A DNA stretch of 32,915 nucleotides from Bacteroidales bacterium (GTDB lineage: Bacteria > Bacteroidota > Bacteroidia > Bacteroidales > UBA7960): the NCBI GenBank assembly GCA_007129255.1, contig SKVW01000186.1, forward strand, positions 1 through 32,915, written 5' to 3'. Made by a program: the position numbers and the translations under genes. The notes beneath the pieces were generated by a model. That model searched no databases, was not told the origin of the DNA, and saw nothing but the letters and a program-made list of their open reading frames with translations. The stretch's first letter is position 1, and the number at the start of each line of letters is the position of its first letter. Below are positions 6,208-32,488 of this stretch, piece after piece.

Positions 6208-9015
6208 ATGAAAAACCCTTATCTTTTTACCATAACAAAAATTATTTTAACCCTGCTGTTTTTTGCAGGAATAATCGGTTCTTCTCATGCACAGATCACC
6301 ACCGACCCTCCCCTGCCTACAGCTGGGAGCCAGGTGACCATCACTTTTGATGCCACCCAGGGTTCGGGCAGCATGGAAGGCTATACCGGAGATGTTTATA
6401 CCCACACCGGTGTGCGAATAGAAGGAGTCGGCAACTGGCAATACGTAATCGGCAACTGGGGCGACAACGATGTGCAGCCACAGTTGACCCGTATCGGCAC
6501 CGACCTATACGAACTGGTCATCAGCCCAGATCTCTACGATTTTTACGGTGTCCCGGAAACCGAGACCATTACCGGGATGAATTTTGTTTTCAGGGCAGCT
6601 GAAAACGCTCCCCAGACTGAGGACCTGTTTGTTGAAGTGGTTGAAGAAGGCCTGATGGTGGCTATACTTTCACCGGAAGGGTTACAGCCCATTGTAGAGC
6701 TTAATGAAGAGGTGCCAATCCATGCGGCCGCCAACGAGTCGGACTCTTTGTCTCTTTTTGTAAACGAAGCCTTAATCGCAACCACCCATACCCCGGAACT
6801 TTTCTACGACTGGACTGCCGATGAGCACGGACGTTTCGACATCCAGGTGGTTGCCTATGGTGCAGGAGATGAAACTGCTGAAGCCAGCACCTATTTTTAC
6901 GTAAGACCTGAAGTTCCCGTTGCCGATCTTCCCGAAGGGGTGGTACCCGGCATCAACTACATTGACGAAAACACCGTGACCCTGGTTTTGCATGACCCAC
7001 CCGCCCTGAAGGAATACGTTTTTGTAATCGGAGACATCCTGGAGTGGGGCGTGGGAGAAGAAAATTACATGAACCGCACTCCCGATGGTACCCACTTCTG
7101 GATTACATTTAATGACCTTACTCCTGACACAGAGTATGCTTTTCAATATTACATAGACGGAGAATTACGGCTGGCCGACCCCTATACCCACAAGGTACTG
7201 GACCACCTGGACCAGTTCATTGATGACTTCAACTACCCCGATCTGATGCCTTATCCGGAAGATAAAACCTCCGGTAATGTGAGCATCATGCATCCGGGCC
7301 GTACCCCCTATGAATGGGAAGTAACGGATTTTATCCCTCCCGCGGAGGAAGACATGGTCATTTATGAGCTGCTGATAAGGGATTTTGTGGAAACCAGTGC
7401 CATCAAAACGGTAATGGACTCCCTGGATTATTTGGAAAACCTGGGGGTAAACGTAATTGAGCTGATGCCCATCAACCAGTTTGAGGGCAACATTTCATGG
7501 GGTTACAACCCCTCTTTTTACTTTGCCACCGATAAGGCTTACGGCACCATGGAAGATTACAAAAAATTCATTGACGAATGCCATAAGCGGGGCATTGCCG
7601 TGGTACTGGATATTGTGCTGAACCATTCTTTTAATTTGTCACCCCTTGTGCAGATGTATTTTGACCCCGGGGCCGGAAACTGGGGGCAGCCCCTGCCCGA
7701 GAACCCGTGGTACCTGGAAACCTGCCCCCACCCACCCTGGTGCTGGGGACAAACCTTTGACCAGGAAAGCGAATACACCATTGAGTTTTTTGACCGGGTA
7801 ACCGAACACTGGCTCACCGAATTCAACGTGGATGGCTTCCGCTTTGACTTCACCAAAGGGTTTACCAATGAACAAACCGGTGGGCAGGGCTGGAACTATG
7901 ATGCTGACCGCATTGCCAACCTCAAGCGCATTGCCGACCATGTTTGGAGTGTTAACCCCAACGCCTATGTTATCCTGGAACACTTTACCGAAAACAGCGA
8001 AGAAAAGGAACTGGCCGAATACGGGATGATGCTTTGGGGCAACATCACTTTCAATTACCAGGAAGCAGCAATGGGCTGGCTGGACAACAGCAACTTCGAC
8101 TGGATCTCTTATACTAACAGGGGCTGGGACGATCCCCACCTGATCGGTTACATGGAAAGCCATGATGAAGAGCGCATCATGTTTAAAAACCTCAACTACG
8201 GCAACTCCAACAACCCCGCTCATGATGTGAAGAACCTCTCCACCGCCTTAAGAAGGGCTGAGCTGGTGGCTGCGTTTTACTTCCCAATCCCCGGCCCGAA
8301 AATGATCTGGCAGTTTGGGGAGCTGGGCTACGACTACTCCATTAACCATTGCCAGGATGGCACCATAGACGACGGCTGCCGCACCGACCCCAAACCCATT
8401 CGCTGGGATTACTATGATGACTGGAGGCGCAAAAGGGTGTATGATATTTACTCCATCCTGGCCAACTTGAAAACGTCGGAGGAAGTGTTCCGCACCACCG
8501 ATTACTCACTGAGCCTTGATGGGGCCATGAAGCGGATCCACCTGAACCATGAAACCAACAACGTGACCGTTTTGGGCAATTTTGACGTAGTAGCCGGAGA
8601 GATCAACCCCCACTTTCAGCAAACCGGAACCTGGTATGAGTTTTTCAGCAGAGAAACCCTGGAGGTAACAGATGTGAATCAACCCCTGGAACTGGAGCCC
8701 GGAGAATACCGTCTTTATTCAACCGAAGAGTTTCCAGATCATGGCATCCCCCTGAGCACTCCGTCTGTTTCCGATCCGGAAAGCATCAGTTTTATGGCAT
8801 ATCCCAATCCGGCTAGAAACACCCTGATGATAGACGCTGAGCTCGAAATGAAGCAGGTACGATTAATGGATGTAACCGGAAGAACCGTTTTGGTAAAAAA
8901 TCCCGGAAGCACCAAGGTCAGCCTGAGTGTTGGCGGATATCCTGAGGGGATTTACTTCATACAGGTGGAAACCGTCAATGGAGTAACCGCAAAAAAAATA
9001 CAGATCAGTAAGTAA
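6208..9015 (+). CDS. Secreted GH13 alpha-amylase-family hydrolase with T9SS sorting domain
   Basis: This 935-residue protein probably hydrolyses alpha-glucans such as starch outside the cell. It has a signal peptide (residues 1-29, ending SSHA-Q). Two beta-rich domains follow: about 30-145, of the kind common in Bacteroidales amylases, and about 150-232. A CBM48/E-set-like domain then spans about 236-380. The GH13 barrel spans about 388-760 with all conserved regions: DIVLNH with Asp468, Asn472 and His473; GFRFDF with nucleophile Asp547; ILEHF with acid/base Glu591; and ESHDEER with Asp653. A C-terminal beta domain precedes a type A sorting domain from about 855 (YPNPARN at 865-871, GIYFIQ, end KIQISK). 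That domain marks it for T9SS export through SprA, encoded nearby. Amylase, pullulanase and other GH13 activities cannot be told apart here. Confidence 0.93.
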   Translation: MKNPYLFTITKIILTLLFFAGIIGSSHAQITTDPPLPTAGSQVTITFDATQGSGSMEGYTGDVYTHTGVRIEGVGNWQYVIGNWGDNDVQPQLTRIGTDLYELVISPDLYDFYGVPETETITGMNFVFRAAENAPQTEDLFVEVVEEGLMVAILSPEGLQPIVELNEEVPIHAAANESDSLSLFVNEALIATTHTPELFYDWTADEHGRFDIQVVAYGAGDETAEASTYFYVRPEVPVADLPEGVVPGINYIDENTVTLVLHDPPALKEYVFVIGDILEWGVGEENYMNRTPDGTHFWITFNDLTPDTEYAFQYYIDGELRLADPYTHKVLDHLDQFIDDFNYPDLMPYPEDKTSGNVSIMHPGRTPYEWEVTDFIPPAEEDMVIYELLIRDFVETSAIKTVMDSLDYLENLGVNVIELMPINQFEGNISWGYNPSFYFATDKAYGTMEDYKKFIDECHKRGIAVVLDIVLNHSFNLSPLVQMYFDPGAGNWGQPLPENPWYLETCPHPPWCWGQTFDQESEYTIEFFDRVTEHWLTEFNVDGFRFDFTKGFTNEQTGGQGWNYDADRIANLKRIADHVWSVNPNAYVILEHFTENSEEKELAEYGMMLWGNITFNYQEAAMGWLDNSNFDWISYTNRGWDDPHLIGYMESHDEERIMFKNLNYGNSNNPAHDVKNLSTALRRAELVAAFYFPIPGPKMIWQFGELGYDYSINHCQDGTIDDGCRTDPKPIRWDYYDDWRRKRVYDIYSILANLKTSEEVFRTTDYSLSLDGAMKRIHLNHETNNVTVLGNFDVVAGEINPHFQQTGTWYEFFSRETLEVTDVNQPLELEPGEYRLYSTEEFPDHGIPLSTPSVSDPESISFMAYPNPARNTLMIDAELEMKQVRLMDVTGRTVLVKNPGSTKVSLSVGGYPEGIYFIQVETVNGVTAKKIQISK

Positions 9016-13411: not shown

Positions 13412-16400
13412 TTGGTGCTAGTAAGGCTTTTTTTCTCTTTCCCGTATTTTTTCCGGTGTTTGATCCTGGCAACCCTGGGCCTTCTGCTTTTAACCGCCGG
13501 CAATAAGGGGGCTGCTTTTAACCTGAAAGCCAGTCCTGCCATTCTGGATACCGACACCCTTCAGCCTCTTCCCCCGATAGACCTGCCTTTCCCTTTTACA
13601 GATGCCGACCCCTATGATCTGAAAGGCACCCCTTCGGGCGGACTGTATTTTACGGATCCTCCCAATGTTACCACAGAAATAAATTATGACCCGGAAACAG
13701 GGCACTACGTTAAAACCAGGAAAGTGGGCGACATGGTGATCGGCCGCCCGGTATATATCAGCTTTGAAGACTACCTGCAATATGATATGGACCGCGGGCT
13801 GCAAAAATACTGGAGGGAAAGATCGCAACCACAGACCTTTGAACGTCGTGAAGGAGTGATTCCCGAAATTTATATCGGGGGGGAGTTTTTTGACCGCATA
13901 TTTGGTGGTAGCACCATAGATATCCGGCCTACCGGTTCGGCAGAACTCATTTTCGGGGTTATGTCCAATTACCGGGAAGATCCTGCCCTTGATGAAAAGC
14001 GCCGCCGCACCACCAACTTCGACTTTCAGCAAAAGATCCAACTAAGTGTGGAAGCCAGGATCGGTGAAAAGATCGAGATCAGCAGCAATTACAATACGGA
14101 AGCTTCCTTTGATTTTGAGAACCGGATGAAACTTGAGTACCGGGGTACCGAAGACGAGATCCTGCAGCTGGTAGAAGCAGGAGATGTTACCCTTCCCCTT
14201 CCCGGCTCCCTGATATCGGGCACCCAGGGGCTTTTTGGGTTCAAAACCGAAATGCGTTTTGGCAACACCACCGTGACCAGCATTTTCTCCCAGCAAAAAA
14301 CCGAAACCTCTACCATTGAAGTTTCCGGAGGAGCCCAAACCACTGAATTTGAACTTGATGCACTTGATTACGAATCCAATCGCCACTATTTCCTGGCGCA
14401 GTATTTCCGGGATAATTATGGCGAAGCCCTTTCCACCCTGCCGGTTGTAAGCTCAAATGTCAACATCACCCGTATGGAGGTATGGGTTACCAACGTGGGG
14501 CCTGCCACCGAGGACAACCGCAACATTGTCGGGTTTGCCGATCTAGGCGAGGTGGAGCCCTATAACGAAAACCTGGAACCCTATCATACCATGGGGCCAA
14601 CCAATGCCTCCAACAACCTTTATGAAAGCATGCTGGGAACTCCCATACGGAACATTAACCAGGTAAATACTTACCTTTCGCAACGGCCCGAAGGTTTTGC
14701 ATCGGGCGTGGATTATGAGAATGTAGAAAACGCGCGCAGGCTGCGTTCCAACGAATATACCTTTAATAGCAAGCTTGGCTTCATTTCCTTGAACCAACCC
14801 GTAAACCCTGATCAGGTTTTGGCGGTAGCTTTTCAGTATACCATTATTGGGGACACCACAACCTACCAGGTGGGTGAGTTTTCAAACGAAGTTTCCGCCC
14901 CCAGCACCCTGATGGTAAAGCTGCTGAAAAGCACGGCAGTGGACACCCGCCTTCCCATGTGGGACCTGATGATGAAAAACGTTTACAGCCTTGGTGCTTT
15001 TCAGATCAACCGCCAGGACTTCCGGTTTAACGTTTTATATGAAAGCGAGGAACTTGGTGTTCCCATTGGCTTTTTAAACGAAGGTCCGGTTGAGGGAGAG
15101 CCCCTGATACGTGTTCTGGGCCTGGACAATCTCAACACCCAATTGGATCCCACCCCCGACGGTATCTTTGACTTTATTGACAATGCCGCCACTCAGGGAG
15201 GAACCATCCAGGCTTCCAACGGCAGGGTCTATTTCCCGGTTGTGGAACCTTTTGGCTCCCATCTTCGAAAAGTGCTCGAAGATGAAGAACTGGGCGACAA
15301 GTACGCCTTTGACTCCCTGTATACTACCACCAAATCCAGGGCGCAGCAGTTTCCTGAACAGAACCGCTTTATCATGCAGGGGACCTATAAGTCGGAAGCC
15401 GGATCGGACATTCCCCTCAATGCCATGAACATCCCTCCGGGATCCGTGGTGGTCACTGCAGGCGGTGTGCCCCTTACCGAAGATGTGGACTATACTGTAG
15501 ATTATACCCTCGGCCGGGTGAGGATTATCAATGAAGGAATCCTGAATTCGGGAACCCCCATCCGCATTTCCCTGGAAAGCCAAAGCCTTTTCAACCTTCA
15601 GACCAAAACCCTGATGGGTACGCATGTGAACCATCGCATCAGTGACGACTTCAATATCGGGGCCACCATCATGCGCCTTTCGGAACGGCCCCTCACCCAG
15701 AAGGTGAATTACGGGGATGAGCCCATTGCCAATACCATATGGGGACTGAACACAACCTACACCACGGAGTCTTTGTTTTTGACCCGTATGCTGGACCGGT
15801 TGCCCTTTTACAGTTCAACTACCCCCTCGCGCATTACCTTCGACGGGGAGTTTGCCCACCTGATCCCAGGGCACTCCCGCCATATCGGGAGTGCAGGAAC
15901 TGCATACATCGACGACTTTGAAGGAGCCAAATCATCCATTGATCTGAAAAATGTTCAACGGTGGAACATTGCCAGCACCCCGCAACACCAGACAGAACCG
16001 GGCATGTTTCCCGAAGGGGCGCTGATCAACGACTGGGCATTCCGCTACAACGTTGCCAAACTGGCATGGTACGTCATTGACCCTCTGTTTACCCGCAACA
16101 ACAACCTCACCCCTTCCCACATCCGCAATGATGTGGAGCAGCGCTCCAACCACTTTGTTCGGGAAGTGCTGGAAAACGAGATCTGGCCGAACAAAGAGAG
16201 TCCTACAGGCATTCCCTCTCCCATTCCGGTGTTTAACATGGCTTTTTACCCTAGTGAAAGGGGACCCTACAATTACGATGTGCTTCCTTCGGTTTACAGC
16301 CGGGGTATGGGGCAGGACGGTTTTCTTAACGATCCGGAAACCAGGTGGGGCGGTATCATGCGCGGACTGGAAACTACCGATTTTGAAGCGGCCAACATCG

Positions 16401-19400
16401 AATACGTAGAATTCTGGATGATGGATCCTTTCGTGTATGATGAGAACCACTCAGGAGGTGACCTTTACATCAACCTTGGAGACATTTCTGAAGATGTGTT
16501 GCGCGATGGAAGGAAAAGTTTTGAAAACGGACTACCCATTACCGATGAAGTGATAAACGTAGATACCACCGTATGGGGGCGGGTACCCACGGTGCAGGAA
16601 GTGGTAGATGCCTTTGACAACAACCCCGAGTCGCGTCAATACCAGGATGTAGGACTTGACGGGCTGAGCACCGAAGACGAGCAGGACTTTTTTGCTGAAG
16701 ATTTTCTTGACGTGATTGCTGCAACCTTCGGCACCGGCTCAGAGGCTTATGCAAAGGCCTTTGAAGACCCTTCGGCAGACAATTACCGGTATTACAGGGG
16801 TTCGGACCTGGATGCCGCAGAGGTCAGCATCCTGGATCGATACAAAAGATACAACGGCCTGGAAGGCAACAGCCCCACCGCAGAACAGTCGCCGGAACCA
16901 TTTCCCACCGCCGCTACCAACCGCCCCAATACCGAGGACATTAACCGGGACGGAACCCTGAATGAATCGGAACGCTATTTTCAGTATCGCGTTAGTCTAC
17001 GGCCAGAAGATATGGAAGTGGGGCAAAACTACATCACCGATGTAATGGAAGCCAATGTGAGGCTTGCCAACAACGAGGTGGAAACCATCAGGTGGTACCA
17101 GTTTAAGGTACCCTTGCGCGATCCTGACAGGCAGGTGGTAGGCAACATACAGGATTTTAAATCCATCCGCTTTTTGCGCATGTTTTTTAAAGGATTTGAA
17201 GAGCCCATCGTTTGCCGCTTTGCCACCCTGGAGCTTATCAGGGGCACCTGGAGGACTTATGACCGCTCCCTTACCAGCCCCGGAGAATATGTTCCTATAG
17301 ACAATGAAGATACCTCTTTTGAGGTTTTCGCGGTAAACATTGAGGAAAACGGGCAGCGTTCGCCCATCCCTTATGTATTGCCTCCGGGCATTGAGCGGGA
17401 AGTGGACCTGGGTACCACTACTATGCAGCAGCGCAACGAGCAATCCCTGGCCATGAGAACCCGTAACCTCAAAGACGGAGATGCCCGTGCGGTTTATAAA
17501 ACCGCAAACATGGACATGCGTCAGTACCGCCGCCTGAAAATGTTTGCCCATGCCGAAGCCGCAGGTGAGCAGGAAGACCTGAACGATGACGACATCACCG
17601 TTTTCATAAGACTGGGGGCCGACTTTACCAACAACTATTATGAGTATGAAGTCCCCATGAAGGTGACCCCATGGGGTACCAGTGCTTTAAATGACCTGGC
17701 CATTTGGCCCGAAGAGAACAATTTTGACATTGAACTTTCCAAGCTTACCGATCTGAAACTTGCCCGCAACAGCCTGTCAAGGGATCCCACTTCAGGGGTG
17801 AGCATGAATATTCCTTACAGCCAGTACGACGGGCACAACAAAATGACCATTGTGGGTACCCCCACTTTGAGTGATGTAAAAGTGATCATGATTGGGATGA
17901 GAAATCCAAAGAGAACCTTTAACAACCCGGATGACGATGGCATGCCCAAGACTGCAGAAGTATGGGTAAACGAGCTTCGCCTTTACGACTTTGAGGACCA
18001 GGGGGGATGGGCAGCCAACGCCCGCATGAACGCACGGCTTGCAGATCTTGGTAATTTAACCGTCGCCGGTTATACCAGCACCCCTGGCTTTGGGGGCATT
18101 GAGCAAAAGGTAAACGAACGCCAGAAAGAATATTATTCTTCTTATGACCTTGCTACCAACCTGGAACTGGGCCGGTTTTTCCCTGAAGATTTCGGCCTGC
18201 GCATTCCCATGCATTTCAGCTATTCGGAAAGCCTAAGCAACCCACAGTATAACCCGCTGAACCCCGATATTCTGTTCAGGGACGATCTGGATTCCTATGA
18301 AACAAGTGCAGAAAGGGATTCCATCCGGCACCTGGCCCAGCACTATACCCAAAGGAAAAACCTCAACTTCACCAATGTCGGGAAAACACGTACAACACCC
18401 GGGGCAACCCCAAGACTTTGGGACATAGAGAATCTCGACTTCACCTATGCCTATACCGAATTGTATATGCGCAGCGTGGATATTGAATACGACCGTCAGA
18501 AAAGATGGAGGGGGGCCATCGGCTATAATTTCTCAACCAGCCCCACCAATGTCACTCCATTTTCAGGGGTAGGCTTCTTAAGCCACAATGCCTTTCGGCT
18601 GATCAGGGATTTCAACTTTTACTATATGCCCAGGTTGATCTCTTTCCGCACTGATGTGGACCGGGGATATGCCGAATCACTTATGCGCAACAAGAGTGAG
18701 GCCATCATTGTGCTGGAACCGAATTTCGTCAAGTCTTTCAGCTGGAACCGGTTGTATGATCTGCGATGGGATCTGACCCGTTCGCTGAAGGTGGAATTTA
18801 CCGCTACCAACAATGCCCGCATTGATGAGCCCCCGGGGCGCATTAACCGCGAAGAAGATGATTACCGGGAGAAACGCGATTCCATCATACAGAACATTCG
18901 GAATCTTGGGCGTACCACTTTTTATAACCATCGTGTGAATGCCACCTACAATATTCCCATCAACAAGTTGCCGATGCTGGATTGGATCAATGCCAATGCA
19001 GGCTATGCTGCGGATTTTGACTGGCTGGCCGCACCCTTGTCGGCCCAGGAACTGGGCAACACCATCGAGAACTCCCAGACCCGTCGCCTGAACGTTAATG
19101 CCAACATGGTGAACCTTTACAACAAGGTTGGCTTTTTGCGGGAGATCAACCAGCGCAGCCCGGCCAGACCCGGCGGACAGCAAAGAGGCGGCACCCCGCA
19201 GCGACAGCAAAGGCCCGGCCAGGACCGTGAAGAAGAGGAAGAAGAGCGTCCGGATTATGCACGTATGGTTTTCGACGGATTTATGCGGGTACTGATGGGC
19301 TTTCGCAACTTCTCACTCAATTATACCGAAAGCAACGGGATCCGCTTGCCCGGTTTTGAACCTTCTCCCTCCATCATCGGACAGGACTGGAACAAAATGG

Positions 19401-20653
19401 CCCCGGGAACAGGCTTCATCTTTGGAAGCCAGCAGGACATCCGTCAGCAGGCCGCAGAGGAAGGCTGGATTACCGATAACCCTATGCTGAACAACGCATA
19501 CATCACCAACCATACCCAGAATATTTCGGCCCGCTCCAACTTTGAACCCCTACCCAACCTGAGGATAGAGTTCACGGCCATGCGTAACTATTCACGTAGC
19601 TATTCGGAATATTTCAAGTTTGACACCATCACCAACCGCTTCGATTCCTTCAGCCCTATGGAAGCCGGAAGCTTTAGCATTTCCTTCCTTTCCATTGCCA
19701 CGGTATTCGAGTCGGTTGACGACCGGTTTTACACTTCCGAGAATTTTGAGAATTTTAAAGATCACCGCTTTGACATCGCCATGCGTCTTGCCGGGGAAAA
19801 CCCTAACTGGAACGGTGCCATCAACGACACCACCGGTTTTCCAACCGGTTACGGACCCACTTCTCAAAGCGTGATGATCTCTTCCTTTATGGCGGCTTAT
19901 GCCGGATGGGATCCCTCCACCTCTACCCTGAACCCCTTCCTGAGCATCCCCATGCCCAACTGGAGACTCACTTATGACGGGCTATCCAGAATACCGGCCC
20001 TGCAAAGGTATTTCCAGTCGGTAACTTTAGGGCATGGCTACCGCAGCACTTTTAACATCTCCAACTTCCAATCGGATATCCGTTACCGTGAACGGGAGGC
20101 CCATCCCGGCTTCCCATCGGCCATCAGTGAGGCCACCGGCAACTTCATTCCCGAACATGAGATCGCCCAGGTGAGTATCAACGAACAATTCAACCCCCTG
20201 ATCAATATTGATATTACCTGGCAAAACAGCCTGCTGACGCGTTTTGAATACCGTCGCTCACGTGATATCGCCCTGAGCTTTGCCAATAACCAGGTAACCG
20301 ACGTCACTACCAGGGAGTTCATTATCGGTACGGGATACCGCTTTGAAAACCTGGCCTTTAATATGGCACAGGCAGGTGGAGGCAGGCAACGCATCGAAAG
20401 CGACCTGGTGCTGCGGCTGGACCTTTCCATAAGAGAAAACCGCACCGTTTTGAGAAAGCTGATTGAAGAAGAAAATCTGATCACCGCAGGGCAGCAAACC
20501 ATTTCCCTTAACAGTTCGGCTGATTACCAGGTGAGCCCCAGGGTGAACTTCCGCTTTTTCTTCGACCGCATCATATCCAGCCCCTTCGTTTCAAACCAGT
20601 TTCCCAACTCCAACACCCATGCGGGGTTCAGCCTAAGGTTTATGCTGATGTAA
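13412..20653 (+). CDS. sprA: SprA, type IX secretion outer-membrane translocon
   Basis: SprA (Sov in Porphyromonas) is the giant beta-barrel channel through which T9SS cargo crosses the outer membrane. At 2413 residues it matches the family's unusual size. It begins with a hydrophobic signal sequence (residues 5-33). Many amphipathic strands follow, with SprA-type segments such as YIDDFEGAKSSIDL, EVWVNELRLYDFED and MGFRNFSLNYT...GIRLPGF. It ends in aromatic barrel strands (FRFFFDRIISS, FSLRFMLM). Residues about 1913-1950 are a low-complexity R/P/G/Q then poly-Glu insert, probably a surface or periplasmic loop. There is no ATG near the start: TTG at 13412 or GTG at 13415 must serve. It follows ruvA by 25 nt. 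Three T9SS-sorted proteins in this window are likely clients. Confidence 0.96.
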   Translation: MVLVRLFFSFPYFFRCLILATLGLLLLTAGNKGAAFNLKASPAILDTDTLQPLPPIDLPFPFTDADPYDLKGTPSGGLYFTDPPNVTTEINYDPETGHYVKTRKVGDMVIGRPVYISFEDYLQYDMDRGLQKYWRERSQPQTFERREGVIPEIYIGGEFFDRIFGGSTIDIRPTGSAELIFGVMSNYREDPALDEKRRRTTNFDFQQKIQLSVEARIGEKIEISSNYNTEASFDFENRMKLEYRGTEDEILQLVEAGDVTLPLPGSLISGTQGLFGFKTEMRFGNTTVTSIFSQQKTETSTIEVSGGAQTTEFELDALDYESNRHYFLAQYFRDNYGEALSTLPVVSSNVNITRMEVWVTNVGPATEDNRNIVGFADLGEVEPYNENLEPYHTMGPTNASNNLYESMLGTPIRNINQVNTYLSQRPEGFASGVDYENVENARRLRSNEYTFNSKLGFISLNQPVNPDQVLAVAFQYTIIGDTTTYQVGEFSNEVSAPSTLMVKLLKSTAVDTRLPMWDLMMKNVYSLGAFQINRQDFRFNVLYESEELGVPIGFLNEGPVEGEPLIRVLGLDNLNTQLDPTPDGIFDFIDNAATQGGTIQASNGRVYFPVVEPFGSHLRKVLEDEELGDKYAFDSLYTTTKSRAQQFPEQNRFIMQGTYKSEAGSDIPLNAMNIPPGSVVVTAGGVPLTEDVDYTVDYTLGRVRIINEGILNSGTPIRISLESQSLFNLQTKTLMGTHVNHRISDDFNIGATIMRLSERPLTQKVNYGDEPIANTIWGLNTTYTTESLFLTRMLDRLPFYSSTTPSRITFDGEFAHLIPGHSRHIGSAGTAYIDDFEGAKSSIDLKNVQRWNIASTPQHQTEPGMFPEGALINDWAFRYNVAKLAWYVIDPLFTRNNNLTPSHIRNDVEQRSNHFVREVLENEIWPNKESPTGIPSPIPVFNMAFYPSERGPYNYDVLPSVYSRGMGQDGFLNDPETRWGGIMRGLETTDFEAANIEYVEFWMMDPFVYDENHSGGDLYINLGDISEDVLRDGRKSFENGLPITDEVINVDTTVWGRVPTVQEVVDAFDNNPESRQYQDVGLDGLSTEDEQDFFAEDFLDVIAATFGTGSEAYAKAFEDPSADNYRYYRGSDLDAAEVSILDRYKRYNGLEGNSPTAEQSPEPFPTAATNRPNTEDINRDGTLNESERYFQYRVSLRPEDMEVGQNYITDVMEANVRLANNEVETIRWYQFKVPLRDPDRQVVGNIQDFKSIRFLRMFFKGFEEPIVCRFATLELIRGTWRTYDRSLTSPGEYVPIDNEDTSFEVFAVNIEENGQRSPIPYVLPPGIEREVDLGTTTMQQRNEQSLAMRTRNLKDGDARAVYKTANMDMRQYRRLKMFAHAEAAGEQEDLNDDDITVFIRLGADFTNNYYEYEVPMKVTPWGTSALNDLAIWPEENNFDIELSKLTDLKLARNSLSRDPTSGVSMNIPYSQYDGHNKMTIVGTPTLSDVKVIMIGMRNPKRTFNNPDDDGMPKTAEVWVNELRLYDFEDQGGWAANARMNARLADLGNLTVAGYTSTPGFGGIEQKVNERQKEYYSSYDLATNLELGRFFPEDFGLRIPMHFSYSESLSNPQYNPLNPDILFRDDLDSYETSAERDSIRHLAQHYTQRKNLNFTNVGKTRTTPGATPRLWDIENLDFTYAYTELYMRSVDIEYDRQKRWRGAIGYNFSTSPTNVTPFSGVGFLSHNAFRLIRDFNFYYMPRLISFRTDVDRGYAESLMRNKSEAIIVLEPNFVKSFSWNRLYDLRWDLTRSLKVEFTATNNARIDEPPGRINREEDDYREKRDSIIQNIRNLGRTTFYNHRVNATYNIPINKLPMLDWINANAGYAADFDWLAAPLSAQELGNTIENSQTRRLNVNANMVNLYNKVGFLREINQRSPARPGGQQRGGTPQRQQRPGQDREEEEEERPDYARMVFDGFMRVLMGFRNFSLNYTESNGIRLPGFEPSPSIIGQDWNKMAPGTGFIFGSQQDIRQQAAEEGWITDNPMLNNAYITNHTQNISARSNFEPLPNLRIEFTAMRNYSRSYSEYFKFDTITNRFDSFSPMEAGSFSISFLSIATVFESVDDRFYTSENFENFKDHRFDIAMRLAGENPNWNGAINDTTGFPTGYGPTSQSVMISSFMAAYAGWDPSTSTLNPFLSIPMPNWRLTYDGLSRIPALQRYFQSVTLGHGYRSTFNISNFQSDIRYREREAHPGFPSAISEATGNFIPEHEIAQVSINEQFNPLINIDITWQNSLLTRFEYRRSRDIALSFANNQVTDVTTREFIIGTGYRFENLAFNMAQAGGGRQRIESDLVLRLDLSIRENRTVLRKLIEEENLITAGQQTISLNSSADYQVSPRVNFRFFFDRIISSPFVSNQFPNSNTHAGFSLRFMLM

Positions 20654-25548: not shown

Positions 25549-28500
25549 TTACCTGCTGATTTGCAGACGCTCGATGGCAAAACCAACAGATGTCCTTATT
25601 TGAATGAAATAAACTCCATTATCAAAGCCTAAAACATTCAGAAGGTATTTATTCCCCTCAACTCTGGAAGCATAAACAAGCTGCCCTAAAACGTCCAACA
25701 CCCTGATTTCTTCAATGGTTTCATCAGCATGTATGTGGAGATTGTTCCGTGCAGGATTCGGATAAATGGTCAAACCGGCTACCGAAGGATCCATAACAGA
25801 AACAGGATCTTCCAGAATTACTTCAACCAAAACATCTTCATCTTCCACGCTCACCTCACCGGTTGCATCCTCATAACCATCTCTGCTTACAATATAATCG
25901 TAATTTCCGGGCTCAACATTTTCGAACACATATTCACCGGCATCGTATTGAGTTCCATCAAAAGTAATGGTGGCATCAGCAATGGCTTCGCCTTCCTCGT
26001 CAGTAACATTGAAGGTTACCGTATAAGAGACAGGTTCTCCTTGCATTTCAAAATCGATCTCGACAATGTCCGAAGAACCGGTGGTGTAAACCGACTGCAC
26101 GCCTGCGGTGTGATCACCTGCCGGAAGGTCAGTAAACAGGTATTCTGTTTCAGGATACTCTTCTTCTACCATGTTACCGTTGATATATACATTGAAGCCG
26201 ATGAAAACTTTATTGGATCTATCCTCATTAGGGCTGTCAACAATGAAAGGAGTTTCCACAGGAATAGCTTTTGGAGAAGGTCCTTGGTTGAAAGCAGGTT
26301 GTTGCTTCCCGAACTGGATTTCACCGTTATTTTCACCATACGCCCTCAGAAGGAAATTCATTTCAAAGTTCCAGGTATTGATGTCCGAGAAGTCCATGTT
26401 TGCATCAGTAATATCCTGAACGGCAAAGTGTGTTCCTGGAGAAAACTCCCAGGGAGGGCCGGACCCATTGTCAGTAGCAATTCCCAGAAATCCATTATAG
26501 CTTAAACCGACAAAAAAACCATTTGAAGCATCAATAGGTTCAGGAAAAGCGAAAGTATTCCATTGCTCATCGGTATTGGTAACATTCTCTTGGGTGTGGA
26601 TGATGTTGTTGCGATCGGGAAAGCCATTTTCATCAAGCCCCAAAATCCAAATTTTTACATAATTATGTGGTCCTCCTTCAGAGGTAAGAAACCATGAAAC
26701 TTCATGAACTACCGCATCATAATGGTGGACAGCACCGAGCACACTATTCAGGTTACCTTCGGTAAAGCCTAGCTGGTGGTCAACATATCCGTCATCGTAG
26801 CGAAATTCATATTCGCTGCCATAATCATTCCACATAAACAGGGCCTCACCTTCGTCCATTCCTTCTGTTACGATTTCAAGGTTATATGGCTCAACAATGT
26901 CATCCAGCATAAAAACATTCATTTCTTTATCCTGGTGCTCAAGTTCAAAAGAAACGGTTTCGGTGAGATATCCCTGTGCAAAAACGGTAGCTTCATAAGC
27001 CATTCCACCAATCAGGTCAATGTGGGCAGTTCCGGTAGCATCTGTAGTGGCTTGTTGATCATTCACTGTAATAACCGCTCCTTCAATGGGATCTTCCTCA
27101 TTGGTATCCTCCATAACATTAAAGGTTACTGTATGAATTGCCGATTCATCAACCAAAAAAATGTTATCAAAATTCCAGGAATTGACATCATAGGAAGGCC
27201 CGTCAAAAACCCAGGCCAGGAAAAACTCCTCTGATCCTACCCCATGATCTTCTGCTGTAAGTATGGTTTGAAATTCGTGAGCGGGGATATCACTGGGGCT
27301 TTCCCATTCGTGGATCAGGAATTCTTCCCCGTCGGCGATAGAAACCACACGCAAGTCATAGCCACTTGGTATCCAATAGTTGTTCAAATAATTATTAAAA
27401 AAGAAAACAAGAGAGGTGTTTCCGGATGTATTGATTTTGGGAGATGTAAGATAAAATTCTCCACTGGCCATAGGGGCCATGTAAAAGCGCATTTCGGGTG
27501 CTTCACCACCGGCATGGTTGGTGTTGGATACCCCCCAGTTTAATACATCTCTTGTCCATAACGCCGGGATCTCTCCTTCAGGAACGCCGGAAAAGTCCTC
27601 CATAAAGGGCAGCTCCACTGCATCTGCTGAAGAGAAATGTGCTTTAACTGTTTGGTCTTCATCCATGGTAATGGTTGTTTCAGGATTATGCTCCTCTGCA
27701 ACGTTTCCTTCCCAATGGCTGAACTCCCAGCCCAGATCCGGACTTGCGGAAATACTGACAATTTCTCCGGAAAGATAATCATGGTCTCCCACCTCTGGCA
27801 CTACACTGCCGTTCCCTTCGGGTTCCTCCATTGTTAATGTAAAGGTTTCTTCTGAAACAAAAAATGCCTGAACTGAAATGTTCTCATGAATATGAATCAC
27901 CGTATCCGCATGATAAGAGTATGTTTCTCCATTCACTTCCCATTTTTCAAAGCTCCAGTTGTTTTCTGCTTCAGCATTTAGTTCTACCTCGGTTCCTTCG
28001 GTATAGTTATGATCTCCGGACTCCGGACTGACGGCACCCTCTCCAACCGGATCCTGCATGGACAGGGTAAACGTATCGAACGTTCCCACGGCAACATCGT
28101 CTACATAAATCCTGTTGGGGCCTGCCTCATCTTCCCCTTTAATGTAATAATTAAACGCAATATGTTTAATTCCGCTGTAATCTTCCAGAGACAATATATA
28201 CTCTTCCCAGCTTCTGGTAAAAGAGATTTCATCAATTAAAACTGCGTTGACATGAAGTTCAAAAACATTATCATACTGGTCATCCACTATCATTATTCGC
28301 ATATTTTCCCTAACCCCGTCAGGCCAATAACTGGAGTACCCAAAAAATAAAAGCATTGTTGCTTCGGGGTTATCCAGGTTCAATGCGGGGCTAATCAGCC
28401 ATTCATCAGCTTGAGAGTTTGAACTGCTGCCCTGATAAGCTCTTGCAGCATAATCACCGGTATTGGATGTTACATCTGTATGCTCCCAATAGCTTCCAAA

Positions 28501-29418
28501 ATTTCCGCTGACAACTTTCCAGCCTTCCGGTGATTCCGGATCGCCTGACCAGGCAGTTTCAAAATCTTCAATCCATGGAAACTCATCAACCAAATCATCG
28601 GGGAGATCAGTGGCTTCCATGAAAACATTGATGGTCTTTGTCTCGCCATCAATTGTAAAATCAATGGTTTGTTCTTCAAAGTCCTCTTTGGTAACATGGG
28701 CCGTATAACTGCCGTCTGAAAGTTCTATTGAAGCCTGGCCTCCGGTATCTGTCTGAAACGGATCCATTCCATCTATTGCTATTTCCGCACCTTCAATAGG
28801 ATCCTCCTCTGGTGTATCCTCCTTAACCATAAAGGTTACCAAATACTCTTCGGTTGTGGCCTCTGCCAGGGAAATGTCGTCAATGTTCCAGGAAATAAGA
28901 TCATAGGATGGTCCGTCAAAAACCCATGCCAAACGAAAATCCTCAGCACCCACCCCATGATCGGCAGCTGTAAGGACCATGTCAAACACATGGGCTGCCA
29001 TGTCGTCCGGGCTGACCCACTCATGGATCAGGTATTCATTATCTCCAGCAAGAGCTACAACCCTAAGGTCATGTGGTGGAGGAGAAAAATCATTGTTCAG
29101 GTAATTCCTGAATGAAAATTCAAGGGCATCACGTCCGCTGGTATTGATAGCGGGTGTGGTAAGATAAAACTCTCCGCTTACCATGGGCGACATGAAAAAC
29201 CGCATCTCAGGTGCCTCTCCACCGGCGTTGCTGGAATTGTGAACCCCCCAGTTACTGGCATCCCGCGTCCAGCCGGCCGGTATTTCACCACTCTCCACAC
29301 CCGAAAAATCTTCAGCAAACGGAAGGGTTATTCCATTAGCAGGCTGTTCTGCATAGGCATGGCTTAATGCCATCACCAAAGAAAGAATCGTAAAAAGCAA
29401 ATAGTTAATTTTTTTCAT
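25549..29418 (-). CDS. Large multidomain T9SS-secreted adhesin-like protein
   Basis: This 1289-residue surface protein has no catalytic domain I can recognise. A signal peptide (1-23) is followed by a choice-of-anchor-J-like (jelly-roll) domain (31-187) and a carboxypeptidase-regulatory/PEGA-like beta domain (192-269). A second anchor-J/MAM-like domain spans 281-448, then two InlB-type B repeats (449-521, 526-597). A second copy of the first module follows (601-757 plus 762-838). A beta domain (about 850-1030), an Fn3-like domain (about 1060-1127), a further regulatory-like domain (1131-1204) and a type A sorting domain (1214-1289: YPNPARN, GVYFIQI, RLQISR) complete it. It is strongly acidic. 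It is probably exported by T9SS and surface-attached, for adhesion or glycan binding. It is divergent from a two-component operon. Confidence 0.9.
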   Translation of the reverse strand: MKKINYLLFTILSLVMALSHAYAEQPANGITLPFAEDFSGVESGEIPAGWTRDASNWGVHNSSNAGGEAPEMRFFMSPMVSGEFYLTTPAINTSGRDALEFSFRNYLNNDFSPPPHDLRVVALAGDNEYLIHEWVSPDDMAAHVFDMVLTAADHGVGAEDFRLAWVFDGPSYDLISWNIDDISLAEATTEEYLVTFMVKEDTPEEDPIEGAEIAIDGMDPFQTDTGGQASIELSDGSYTAHVTKEDFEEQTIDFTIDGETKTINVFMEATDLPDDLVDEFPWIEDFETAWSGDPESPEGWKVVSGNFGSYWEHTDVTSNTGDYAARAYQGSSSNSQADEWLISPALNLDNPEATMLLFFGYSSYWPDGVRENMRIMIVDDQYDNVFELHVNAVLIDEISFTRSWEEYILSLEDYSGIKHIAFNYYIKGEDEAGPNRIYVDDVAVGTFDTFTLSMQDPVGEGAVSPESGDHNYTEGTEVELNAEAENNWSFEKWEVNGETYSYHADTVIHIHENISVQAFFVSEETFTLTMEEPEGNGSVVPEVGDHDYLSGEIVSISASPDLGWEFSHWEGNVAEEHNPETTITMDEDQTVKAHFSSADAVELPFMEDFSGVPEGEIPALWTRDVLNWGVSNTNHAGGEAPEMRFYMAPMASGEFYLTSPKINTSGNTSLVFFFNNYLNNYWIPSGYDLRVVSIADGEEFLIHEWESPSDIPAHEFQTILTAEDHGVGSEEFFLAWVFDGPSYDVNSWNFDNIFLVDESAIHTVTFNVMEDTNEEDPIEGAVITVNDQQATTDATGTAHIDLIGGMAYEATVFAQGYLTETVSFELEHQDKEMNVFMLDDIVEPYNLEIVTEGMDEGEALFMWNDYGSEYEFRYDDGYVDHQLGFTEGNLNSVLGAVHHYDAVVHEVSWFLTSEGGPHNYVKIWILGLDENGFPDRNNIIHTQENVTNTDEQWNTFAFPEPIDASNGFFVGLSYNGFLGIATDNGSGPPWEFSPGTHFAVQDITDANMDFSDINTWNFEMNFLLRAYGENNGEIQFGKQQPAFNQGPSPKAIPVETPFIVDSPNEDRSNKVFIGFNVYINGNMVEEEYPETEYLFTDLPAGDHTAGVQSVYTTGSSDIVEIDFEMQGEPVSYTVTFNVTDEEGEAIADATITFDGTQYDAGEYVFENVEPGNYDYIVSRDGYEDATGEVSVEDEDVLVEVILEDPVSVMDPSVAGLTIYPNPARNNLHIHADETIEEIRVLDVLGQLVYASRVEGNKYLLNVLGFDNGVYFIQIRTSVGFAIERLQISR
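27148..27618 (-). repeat. Second copy of an internal duplicated module in the T9SS cargo
   Basis: This encodes residues 601-757. The shared pattern ...FSGVxxGEIPAxW and GGEAPEMRF(F/Y)M, then SGEFYLT and NTSG, also occurs at residues 31-187 (28858-29328). The match is evident in protein and has diverged in DNA. Confidence 0.8.
28858..29328 (-). repeat. First copy of the internal duplicated module in the T9SS cargo
   Basis: This encodes residues 31-187, paired with 27148-27618. The following regulatory-like domain (EDxxEEDPIEGA motif at residues 200-211 and 770-781) is duplicated too, so the unit is about 235 residues. Confidence 0.8.
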
Positions 29419-29759
29419 AGTTGATTTTGATTTATTTTCAAATAAAAAGATAATTCCTGCTTTCTGTTTTCAGAGTATTATCAATACAAGATCAAACATA
29501 ATTTGCCACTGTAATCTGAACAATACCCGTTGATAGGTATTTTTACCGTTAAGCTTACCCCGCCCCTTCACTGATGCCTTCATTTAGCAATGGGTACAGC
29601 CACTTTAAAACAAACGGGAATTTACCCCTCAGATTACTTTTTAAAGTACCCTCTAAAAAAACATTAATTTTGAAAAACATTTAAACAGCTCCAATATTAA
29701 ATAAATATTTAAGAGTTTTTTGGAGAACTAAATTGATCCCTTTAAAAGAAACCGGTTCA
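29419..29759. other. Divergent intergenic region of cargo gene and kinase operon
   Basis: This AT-rich region of about 340 bp has no coding frame. It carries a cluster of TACC-type boxes (see 29524-29651) and a TAAATATTTA palindrome at 29702-29711. A GGAG (29721-29724) suits a TTG start at 29733 for the kinase. No exact TAnnTTTG element with a -33 partner was found in either direction, which may mean that these promoters need an activator. Confidence 0.6.
29524..29651. promoter_or_regulatory. Putative operator cluster of TACCC boxes, NarL-like 7-2-7 inverted pair
   Basis: TACCCGT (29524-29530), TG, then ATAGGTA (29533-29539) match the NarL-type arrangement TACYYMT-n2-AKRRGTA at 13 of 14 positions. 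Further boxes are TACCCCG (29556-29562), ATGGGTA (29590-29596, minus-strand TACCCAT), TACCCCT (29623-29629) and TACCC (29647-29651). The starts 29524, 29556, 29590 and 29623 are 32, 34 and 33 bp apart, about three helical turns. The natural candidate to bind is the NarL/LuxR regulator encoded at 31832. Binding is inferred, not shown. Confidence 0.5.
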
Positions 29760-31814
29760 ATGAGAAAGAAAGAAAAAAAATTTTCTTTTCGACTTAATGC
29801 TCAAACATTGGCTTTAATAACCTTTTGTTATGTTTTTTTACTTTTTAAGCACGCAGCAATGGGCAATTCGTCAACTGAGCCCTTAATCAAGGATAATGAC
29901 TATCATTCACAGCTTGCCTTTGAACTGGCGTTTTCCGATCCGGACAGTGCCAGAAAAATAGCACAACAAAGATTGGAAATTATCAAGGCAGAAGAAAAAA
30001 CATTAGAAAAATTACCATTTTATAATGTTATTGGTATTTCATACTTCTTTCAGGCCCGCTATAACAAAGCTCTGGAGAACTTCTACACCAATCTGGAACT
30101 GGCAATAGAAGCCAATGAAGAATACTACAAGGCTCATTCATACAACAATATCGGGTTGATTAACCTTTTAACCGGCAAATATAAAGATGCACTTGAGTTT
30201 CTGTTGAAGTCTGCAGAATTGTATGAAGCTTTGGATGACACAATAAGTCATTTAAGGTCGGTAAATAATATCGGGCGTGTTTATTTCAATGCCAATGACC
30301 TGGATAAAGCCGATTATTATTATTCAAAAGCTTTTCAGGGCTTTACTGCCCTTGGGTTTGACGAAGGGATCTCTTCCGTGGCAAATCATAAGGCTCAATA
30401 TTATCTTAAAGAAAATAAACCGGATTCTGCTCTATTTTTTTTCAGGAAAGCTGTTGAATTTGGTAAAAAGACTGAATACACCTATGGCTTAAGTGTCATT
30501 TTTTTGGAAAAAGGAAACTTCTATTTGAAAACCGGGAATCCTTCTAAAGCAATTGTGAATTACCAAATAAGTGACTCTTTGGCAAAAATTTTACAATCGC
30601 CCTTGCAAACCTGTTATCCCATGCTTGGCATCTCACAAGCTTACTTGAAAATGGGGAAAACCAATTTGGCTAAAAAATACGTGAATAAAGTCAGTGAAAT
30701 TAACAAGGAGTTAAAAAACGAAGAATTAAGCTACAAAATAAATGAGGCTTTGTCAAAAGTTTTTGAAGCGAAAGGGAATGTTGAGAAAGCTTTTTATTAT
30801 TACAGGTTATCAAACGAGAAGAAAGCCCGGTTATTTGATCAAACAGAAGTTTATCAGTTATATAATGTGGAGATAGAGGAGCTGGGTCGAAAAATGGAGC
30901 TCAAAGAACTGGAAATGGAAAAGCAGGAGCTTTTACTGGGTAAACGCAAAAACCTAATTTACCTGATTGTACTGGCATCAGCTTCCCTTATTATCATATT
31001 GTCTTTGTTATACTATTTTTACATCAACCGAGTTAAACAGATTCAGAAAGAAAACCTTCATCAAAGCAGGATCAGACACACCCATGAAAAGAACAGGGCA
31101 GCACTGAAAGCCGAGCTCCACGAAAGAAAACGCCTGGGCATGGAACTACATGACGGGGTAGGCCCCCTGATTTCGCTGACAAAGCTGAATGTAACCAACG
31201 TTTTGGAAGATGAAACTTTAAGTCCGGAAAGAAAGACGGAGTTGCTGGGCAAATCGGCCGACAATCTGGATGAAGTGCTCCGGGAAATGAAATACATATC
31301 CTATAACCTGGCTCCTTTGGTTTTGATAGAAAAAGGTTTTGAATATGCCTTAAGGGATCTGGTGGCTAAAATCCGGAACTTAAAAAAGCATAAAATAAGC
31401 ATTAACATTAACGGGTTAGACAATTCTCTTGACGGTTATTTTGAGCATGCCCTATACCGCGCCATCCAGGAGACCTTTAACAACATCATACTTCATGCAG
31501 AAGCCAGCGAGATAAATGTTGAAATTCTCCAAAGCAAAACAGACCTGACCATCATGATCGAGGACAACGGGAAAGGTTTCGATGCCCGCGAGGATGGGCC
31601 GGGTTTGGGACTCAAAAGCACGGTTTCACGGATAGAAGGGTTGGGTGGTAGGCTTTTAATTGACAGCAAACCCGGTAGGGGAACCATCATCACCATCATC
31701 ATTCCCCTGAGTGAAAATGCGTTTCAAATAAAAAAATCAAAACTTTCCTTACCAAAAGACAAACCAAATAAGACGGAACAGACCCGTCATCAATATACAA
31801 GAGCAGGTTTTTAA
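29760..31814 (+). CDS. TPR-containing sensor histidine kinase (NarL/LuxR-partner type)
   Basis: This membrane sensor kinase of about 684 residues starts with a basic and hydrophobic signal/anchor (about 1-35). A tetratricopeptide array (about 45-370) and one membrane helix (about 397-422) follow, so the TPRs are probably periplasmic. A short coiled coil leads to the HisKA_3-type dimerisation box RKRLGMELHDGVG with phospho-accepting His464. The HATPase domain has the N box ETFNNI (571-576; Asn574, Asn575), G1 DNGKGFD (602-608) and G2 GPGLGLKS (613-620). Family knowledge pairs such kinases with LuxR-type regulators, and one follows after 17 nt. Start: the ATG at 29760 is taken; a TTG at 29733 has a GGAG 8 nt upstream and is a real alternative. 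The signal sensed is unknown. Confidence 0.93.
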   Translation: MRKKEKKFSFRLNAQTLALITFCYVFLLFKHAAMGNSSTEPLIKDNDYHSQLAFELAFSDPDSARKIAQQRLEIIKAEEKTLEKLPFYNVIGISYFFQARYNKALENFYTNLELAIEANEEYYKAHSYNNIGLINLLTGKYKDALEFLLKSAELYEALDDTISHLRSVNNIGRVYFNANDLDKADYYYSKAFQGFTALGFDEGISSVANHKAQYYLKENKPDSALFFFRKAVEFGKKTEYTYGLSVIFLEKGNFYLKTGNPSKAIVNYQISDSLAKILQSPLQTCYPMLGISQAYLKMGKTNLAKKYVNKVSEINKELKNEELSYKINEALSKVFEAKGNVEKAFYYYRLSNEKKARLFDQTEVYQLYNVEIEELGRKMELKELEMEKQELLLGKRKNLIYLIVLASASLIIILSLLYYFYINRVKQIQKENLHQSRIRHTHEKNRAALKAELHERKRLGMELHDGVGPLISLTKLNVTNVLEDETLSPERKTELLGKSADNLDEVLREMKYISYNLAPLVLIEKGFEYALRDLVAKIRNLKKHKISININGLDNSLDGYFEHALYRAIQETFNNIILHAEASEINVEILQSKTDLTIMIEDNGKGFDAREDGPGLGLKSTVSRIEGLGGRLLIDSKPGRGTIITIIIPLSENAFQIKKSKLSLPKDKPNKTEQTRHQYTRAGF

Positions 31815-31831
31815 GAAAAATACAAAACAAT

Positions 31832-32488
31832 ATGAGTGCAATAAAAGTTTTTCTGATAGATGACCATAAATTATTTATTCACGGACTTACCTCCATTCTA
31901 AATGATAAACCCGGCCTGAAAGTGGTCGGATACGTGCATTCCGCTGAGGAATATTTTGAAAGGGAAGAAAGTCTGGATGTTGATGTTTTCCTTATTGACG
32001 TGAATATGCCCAAAATGTCGGGCATTGAAATTACCAGGCACATAAAAGAAAAGGATCCCAGGGCAAAAATTTTAGCCCTCAGCATGTATGAAGACTCTTT
32101 GTACATTGAAAAAATGATCCAGAGCGGTGCCAGCGGGTATATCATAAAATCTGCGAATATCAAAGAGCTTGTAAAAGCAATAAAAGAGGTAGCCAAAGGA
32201 AAAACTTACCTGGGAGAGGATTTACAAAAGGTCATTTTTGAAAAAATGGGATCCATGGATTTTTTTGAAGACCATGGGCATCTGAACACCAATAACCTTT
32301 CTAAAAGGGAGATAGAAATTTTATCATTGATCGCCAGAGAATATTCCACCCAGCAAATAGCTGAAAAGTTGTTTATAAGTGAGCTTACTGTGGAAACCCA
32401 CCGAAAAAATATCCTGGCCAAAACCAAGGCCAAATCCATTGTTGGTTTGGTAAAATACGCCATCAGAGAAGGCCTGGTGGACTATTGA
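31832..32488 (+). CDS. NarL/LuxR-family response regulator
   Basis: This 218-residue DNA-binding regulator is phosphorylated by the kinase encoded just upstream. The receiver domain (about 4-120) has Asp10-Asp11, phospho-acceptor Asp56 in LIDVNMP, Ser84 and Lys106 (YIIKS), the full active-site set. The C-terminal LuxR-type helix-turn-helix (about 155-216) has LSKREIEIL, then TQQIAEKLFIS and TVETHRKNI recognition region. It likely controls its own operon and the divergent T9SS cargo gene, given the box cluster between them. The gene ends 22 nt before a strong bidirectional terminator. Confidence 0.96.
   Translation: MSAIKVFLIDDHKLFIHGLTSILNDKPGLKVVGYVHSAEEYFEREESLDVDVFLIDVNMPKMSGIEITRHIKEKDPRAKILALSMYEDSLYIEKMIQSGASGYIIKSANIKELVKAIKEVAKGKTYLGEDLQKVIFEKMGSMDFFEDHGHLNTNNLSKREIEILSLIAREYSTQQIAEKLFISELTVETHRKNILAKTKAKSIVGLVKYAIREGLVDY

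Follow-up and report, generated by a model that had tools for sequence, protein, structure and literature searches.

The locus and its genes

The window, the whole 32,915-nucleotide stretch of Bacteroidales DNA analyzed here, is the entire contig C66 of a 3.14-Mb genome in 247 contigs. Near one end, a gene for a T9SS cargo protein is divergent from a gene for a TPR sensor histidine kinase. The two are separated by a 314-bp spacer, and a NarL/LuxR-type response regulator gene follows that of the kinase on the far side from the cargo. The features discussed below are as follows.

25549–29418, minus strand: T9SS cargo gene, 1289 aa, with CarboxypepD_reg, InlB-type repeats and a Por_Secre_tail sorting domain (Pfam)
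29493–29500, minus strand: TATGTTTG, cargo-promoter -7 element of the form TAnnTTTG (pattern search, sequence)
29521–29523, minus strand: TTG at one end of the inverted repeat (GGTATTG on the cargo strand), which provides the cargo promoter with its -33 element (sequence; fixed 20-bp distance)
29522–29541, no strand: 20-bp inverted repeat AATACC-CGTTGATA-GGTATT, predicted binding site for the neighboring NarL/LuxR regulator (exact match, shuffles, composite search)
29556–29651, no strand: four further TACCC/GGGTA boxes at 29556, 29592 (minus), 29623 and 29647, all four missing from L166, the closest orthologue
29665–29672, plus strand: TAATTTTG, candidate -7 element of the kinase operon (identical octamer in L166)
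29733–31814, plus strand: TPR sensor histidine kinase (HisKA_3, HATPase_c; Pfam), start TTG 29733 or in-frame ATG 29760
31832–32488, plus strand: NarL/LuxR-type response regulator (Response_reg, GerE; Pfam), recognition helix SELTVETHRKN

These assignments agree with the first-pass annotation, which had placed the spacer between a T9SS cargo gene and a two-component operon of the NarL type. The C-terminal sorting domain of the cargo (PF18962, 2.9e-11, residues 1218–1284) predicts export by T9SS. The kinase has a FimS-like anatomy, with a TPR region followed by HisKA_3 and HATPase_c and with two membrane helices, read from the sequence as hydrophobic stretches at about residues 25–45 and 410–435. 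Its H-box, ERKRLGMELHDG, and its N and G boxes are intact, as are the receiver motifs of the regulator. The domains of the regulator (PF00072, 9.2e-26; PF00196, 6.1e-18) identify it as a NarL/LuxR-type protein, and its nearest solved relatives in a PDB search are VraR (2.1e-31) and NarL (2.1e-29).

Contig C66 also carries a homologue of the T9SS translocon protein SprA (13412–20653), a further sorting-domain protein (6208–9015) and a third sorting-domain gene, a paralogous cargo that is convergent with the regulator and cut off by the contig end (32568–32915). Rfam gave no match anywhere in the window.

An inverted repeat in the spacer

The spacer contains an exact AATACC-N8-GGTATT match, which occurred in none of 300 shuffles. 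Many of the corresponding spacers, from paralogous cassettes as well as from orthologous ones, share ACAATACC-N8-GGTATTTT when compared side by side. When every 6-base palindrome with a gap of 0–14 was enumerated de novo and without bias in 18 kinase-linked spacers, AATACC-N8-GGTATT ranked first by far, being present in 9 of the 18 as compared with at most two in 200 shuffled sets. As a search pattern on its own, the exact 12-base palindrome was rejected as too loose, with matches outside kinase loci that are mostly intragenic.

The closest orthologous locus, L166, encodes a kinase and a regulator that are 58 and 75% identical to those of the window. Between the two spacers, 17 of 20 positions are identical inside the site, as against 125 of 282 (44%) outside it.

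The NarL/NarP heptamer operator is TACYYMT-NN-AKRRGTA, in a 7-2-7 arrangement. The TACC-N8-GGTA core of the inverted repeat likewise spans 16 bp, TACC opening one heptamer and GGTA closing its inverted partner, and the neighboring regulator belongs to the NarL family. In the window, TACCCGT-TG-ATAGGTA matches the NarL consensus at 13 of 14 positions, as had been pointed out in the first-pass annotation, and it is one of two matches at that level in the window, where 0.08 would be expected by chance. The heptamer itself is nevertheless not the rule, because orthologues differ freely at the inner bases; what recurs in the spacers of regulator clade A is the 7+2+7 geometry of the core. The site also differs from the NarL/NarP operator in that a fixed 20-bp register with an embedded -33 element is part of the pattern. 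A scan of the source genome with the strict NarL consensus returned a single site, on a contig other than C66.

Architecture of the cargo promoter

Class II activators bind at sites centered near -41.5 that overlap the -33/-35 element. Read on the cargo strand, the palindrome is AATACCTATCAACGGGTATTG, and from its terminal TTG it is exactly 20 bp to TATGTTTG. If transcription starts where the TAnnTTTG element predicts, the center of the palindrome lies at about -42 to -42.5 and the site overlaps -33. The earlier statement that neither divergent gene has a TAnnTTTG promoter is thus incorrect, since TATGTTTG is present on the cargo side and TAATTTTG on the kinase side. The -7 element of the cargo promoter is consensus in the window, and several orthologues have weak ones (CATCTTTG, GAGATTTG and TATCATTG). 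The sigma-ABfr promoter consensus consists of TTTG at -33 and TAnnTTTG at -7 (PMC7366714). Both elements are present in the cargo promoter, which differs in that its -33 TTG belongs to the palindrome.

Distribution of the site and the regulator clades

The pattern TACC-N8-GGTATTG-N(20-22)-AnnTTTG was searched in 47 genomes of the family, all of them many-contig drafts in which gene starts were assigned mechanically and several cargo genes are cut by contig ends, with the reversed pattern as the control. The composite TACC-N8-GGTATTG-N20-nAnnTTTG was found 12 times and the reversed control not at all. The distance from TTG to the -7 element was 20 bp in all 12 matches. Ten lie at T9SS cargo genes, eight of them between a TPR kinase and the cargo and two (G000:C142 and G012:C78) ahead of T9SS-type cargo that has no visible kinase neighbor. 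The first of these is a second cargo operon of the source genome. Based on pattern searches, the exact composite occupies only two places in that genome, compared with about 89 sorting-domain matches. The two matches elsewhere (L163 and L156) represent one conserved place, between a lipoprotein-like gene and an NADH:flavin oxidoreductase-like gene, where no downstream gene is evident.

Some of the matching loci, namely the window, L032 and L037–L041, had served to frame the pattern. Loci found after framing were L166, L167, L168, L192, L193, L184, C142 and C78. Among the held-out loci, the site is present in L166, L167, L168, L192, L193 and L184 and absent from L194 and L170, consistent with the matching to regulator clades described next.

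In a phylogenetic tree of the regulators, clade A comprises 14 rows (support 100/100) and its sister clade B eight (98/95). TACC-N8-GGTA occurs in 13 of the 14 clade A spacers, the exception being L169, and in none of the eight of clade B (Fisher P = 2.8e-5), a strong match but one that common descent may partly explain, because regulator and spacer are inherited together. The split is also seen among paralogues within single genomes. In the source genome the site is present in the window and C88 and absent from C156 and C215, and in G012 it is present in C38 and absent from C127 and C73. The recognition helices of clade A read TVETHRK(N/S), or TVQTHRKN in L192, and those of clade B TVETHRRN or TVEAHRR(N/S).

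Two clade B loci, L034 (2798–3090) and L046 (3722–3965), keep ATTG-N20-TAnnTTTG, and there a direct-repeat-like AATACC/ACCTATT replaces the palindrome; in L046 the repeat reads AATACC....AATACCTATTG. FISUMP-type cargo-cluster promoters beside clade A regulators (L032, L042, L044, L192 and L193) have two sites 31–34 bp apart, or about three helical turns, of which the distal one is a full AAAATACC-N8-GGTA.

Across the order as a whole, the composite at one mismatch or fewer is found in 101 of 197 genomes, and most of the exact matches examined precede feoAB or genes for flavodoxin or ferredoxin. In many other families it stands immediately before feoAB and genes for flavodoxin, ferredoxin and RIC/ScdA-like proteins (L128, L137, L142, L145, L147, L150, L229–L232, L234, L235, L237, L240, L241, L228, L242, L131 and L244). 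In the family of the window, none of 30 feoAB promoters contains TACC-N8-GGTA. That the order-wide composite reflects the spread of the same kinase-cargo system was considered and rejected, the downstream genes being mostly iron genes. Because feoAB promoters of the window's family are without the core, the order-wide composite was treated as a different operator of similar form, probably an iron- or redox-type operator with an embedded -33 element. Outside the family, the pattern alone cannot name the regulator, because there the composite is mostly found at iron genes.

Proposed regulation and alternative explanations

Based on this evidence, it seems likely that the spacer holds an operator for the NarL/LuxR regulator fused to a sigma-AB-type cargo promoter, from which the phosphorylated regulator would activate the T9SS surface protein. 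The TPR kinase would sense a signal, in the periplasm to judge by its anatomy, and phosphorylate the regulator encoded downstream. A dimer of the regulator could then bind AATACC-N8-GGTATT, the cargo-side end of which provides the cargo promoter with its -33 TTG. The bound dimer would most likely recruit RNA polymerase, because the center of the site near -42 is a class II activator position, and the surface protein would be switched on. The site, its register, its recurrence and its clade match are read directly in the DNA, and we infer the signal, the binding of the adjacent regulator and its role as an activator, not a repressor.

The first-pass annotation had suggested a dedicated circuit in which the kinase-regulator pair controls a T9SS surface protein. 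The comparison largely supports this suggestion, because an inverted site on the cargo promoter is found repeatedly in spacers between kinase and cargo and goes with one regulator clade. The phased boxes, the missing promoter and the strict NarL consensus on which it had also drawn did not hold up.

Another global regulator, iron-responsive or of the Crp/Fnr type, might instead own the palindrome and control the cargo as well, with the adjacent pair acting elsewhere. The order-wide occurrence of the composite before feoAB and genes for flavodoxin, ferredoxin and RIC/ScdA indicates that another factor reads a very similar site. Within the family, however, the core is missing from the feoAB promoters and most exact matches are at T9SS cargo. 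Moreover, the site tracks the regulator clade even where paralogues share a genome, and the exact composite is confined to two places in a genome with far more sorting-domain matches. Control by such a regulator therefore appears unlikely.

Repression, with the adjacent regulator bound at the site and masking the -33 element of the cargo promoter, is also improbable. The overlap with -33 would fit repression too, and so would the consensus -7 element of the window. In contrast, the invariant 20-bp register, together with the center near -42, is typical of a class II activator, and weak -7 elements, as in several orthologues, are expected of activator-dependent promoters.

The original proposal, in which five TACCC boxes phased at three helical turns make up the regulatory unit, is very unlikely. 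The words themselves were confirmed, four on the plus strand (29524, 29556, 29623 and 29647) and one on the minus strand (29592), and their density is far above chance, with a shuffled mean of 0.61 and none of 500 shuffles reaching five. Tandem sites at a comparable distance do occur in the FISUMP-type paralogues. The claimed spacings of 32, 34 and 33 bp, however, were measured as 32, 36, 31 and 24 bp. In the alignment with L166, only the palindrome, with the first box, is kept and the other four boxes are missing, and most paralogous spacers are not enriched in TACCC. These four boxes may be auxiliary half-sites, for example for an oligomer, or may be due to chance. Chance clustering with no regulatory role at all is hardly credible given the 12 composite matches against none in the control, the palindrome enumeration and the split between clades A and B.

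Relation to known systems

Activation of the cargo by the adjacent regulator would resemble control by FimS and FimR of Porphyromonas gingivalis. FimS has TPR repeats between two membrane helices and, together with FimR, which binds the mfa1 promoter directly, exerts positive control of surface adhesins (PMC11053733, PMC1974823). Both systems combine a TPR kinase and a cognate regulator with positive control of a surface protein, positive control being predicted here, and they are likened by anatomy rather than sequence kinship. They differ in that the targets of FimS/FimR are fimbriae while the target here is a T9SS sorting-domain gene divergent from the kinase. In addition, the study of FimR in PMC1974823 describes no palindromic operator, and the palindrome is a feature of the present system; the operator is new relative to FimS/FimR-like control. 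PorY/PorX-SigP in P. gingivalis is likewise two-component control linked to T9SS (PMC4800418), but it acts on the secretion machinery via a sigma factor, not on a single cargo gene via a NarL-type operator. In the open-licence literature searched, there was no description of a TPR kinase/T9SS-cargo circuit or of an AATACC-N8-GGTATT operator.

As to the question of how Bacteroidota choose among their dozens of T9SS surface proteins, the published control that was found acts on the machinery. An operator tied to a regulator clade and to a promoter register makes one branch of this question directly testable. The sequences compared place the cassette among several paralogous sensor-regulator/cargo units, and operator types differ between the regulator clades. 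Tentatively, and with slightly less than even confidence, we suggest that the family carries a growing set of one-sensor-one-cargo units, in which every duplicated TPR kinase and NarL regulator would retain a T9SS surface protein of its own. Their operators would have diverged with the regulators, clade A having the palindrome, at least part of clade B another repeat and the FISUMP type a tandem form. If each operator did diverge together with its duplicated regulator, the surface proteins would be separately switchable within one cell. Paralogous regulators with matched operators also constitute a set for studying specificity. In two loci (L040, 261–917; L168, 3357–4112) the regulator gene is inverted and convergent with the kinase, and the operator is still present in the kinase/cargo spacer.
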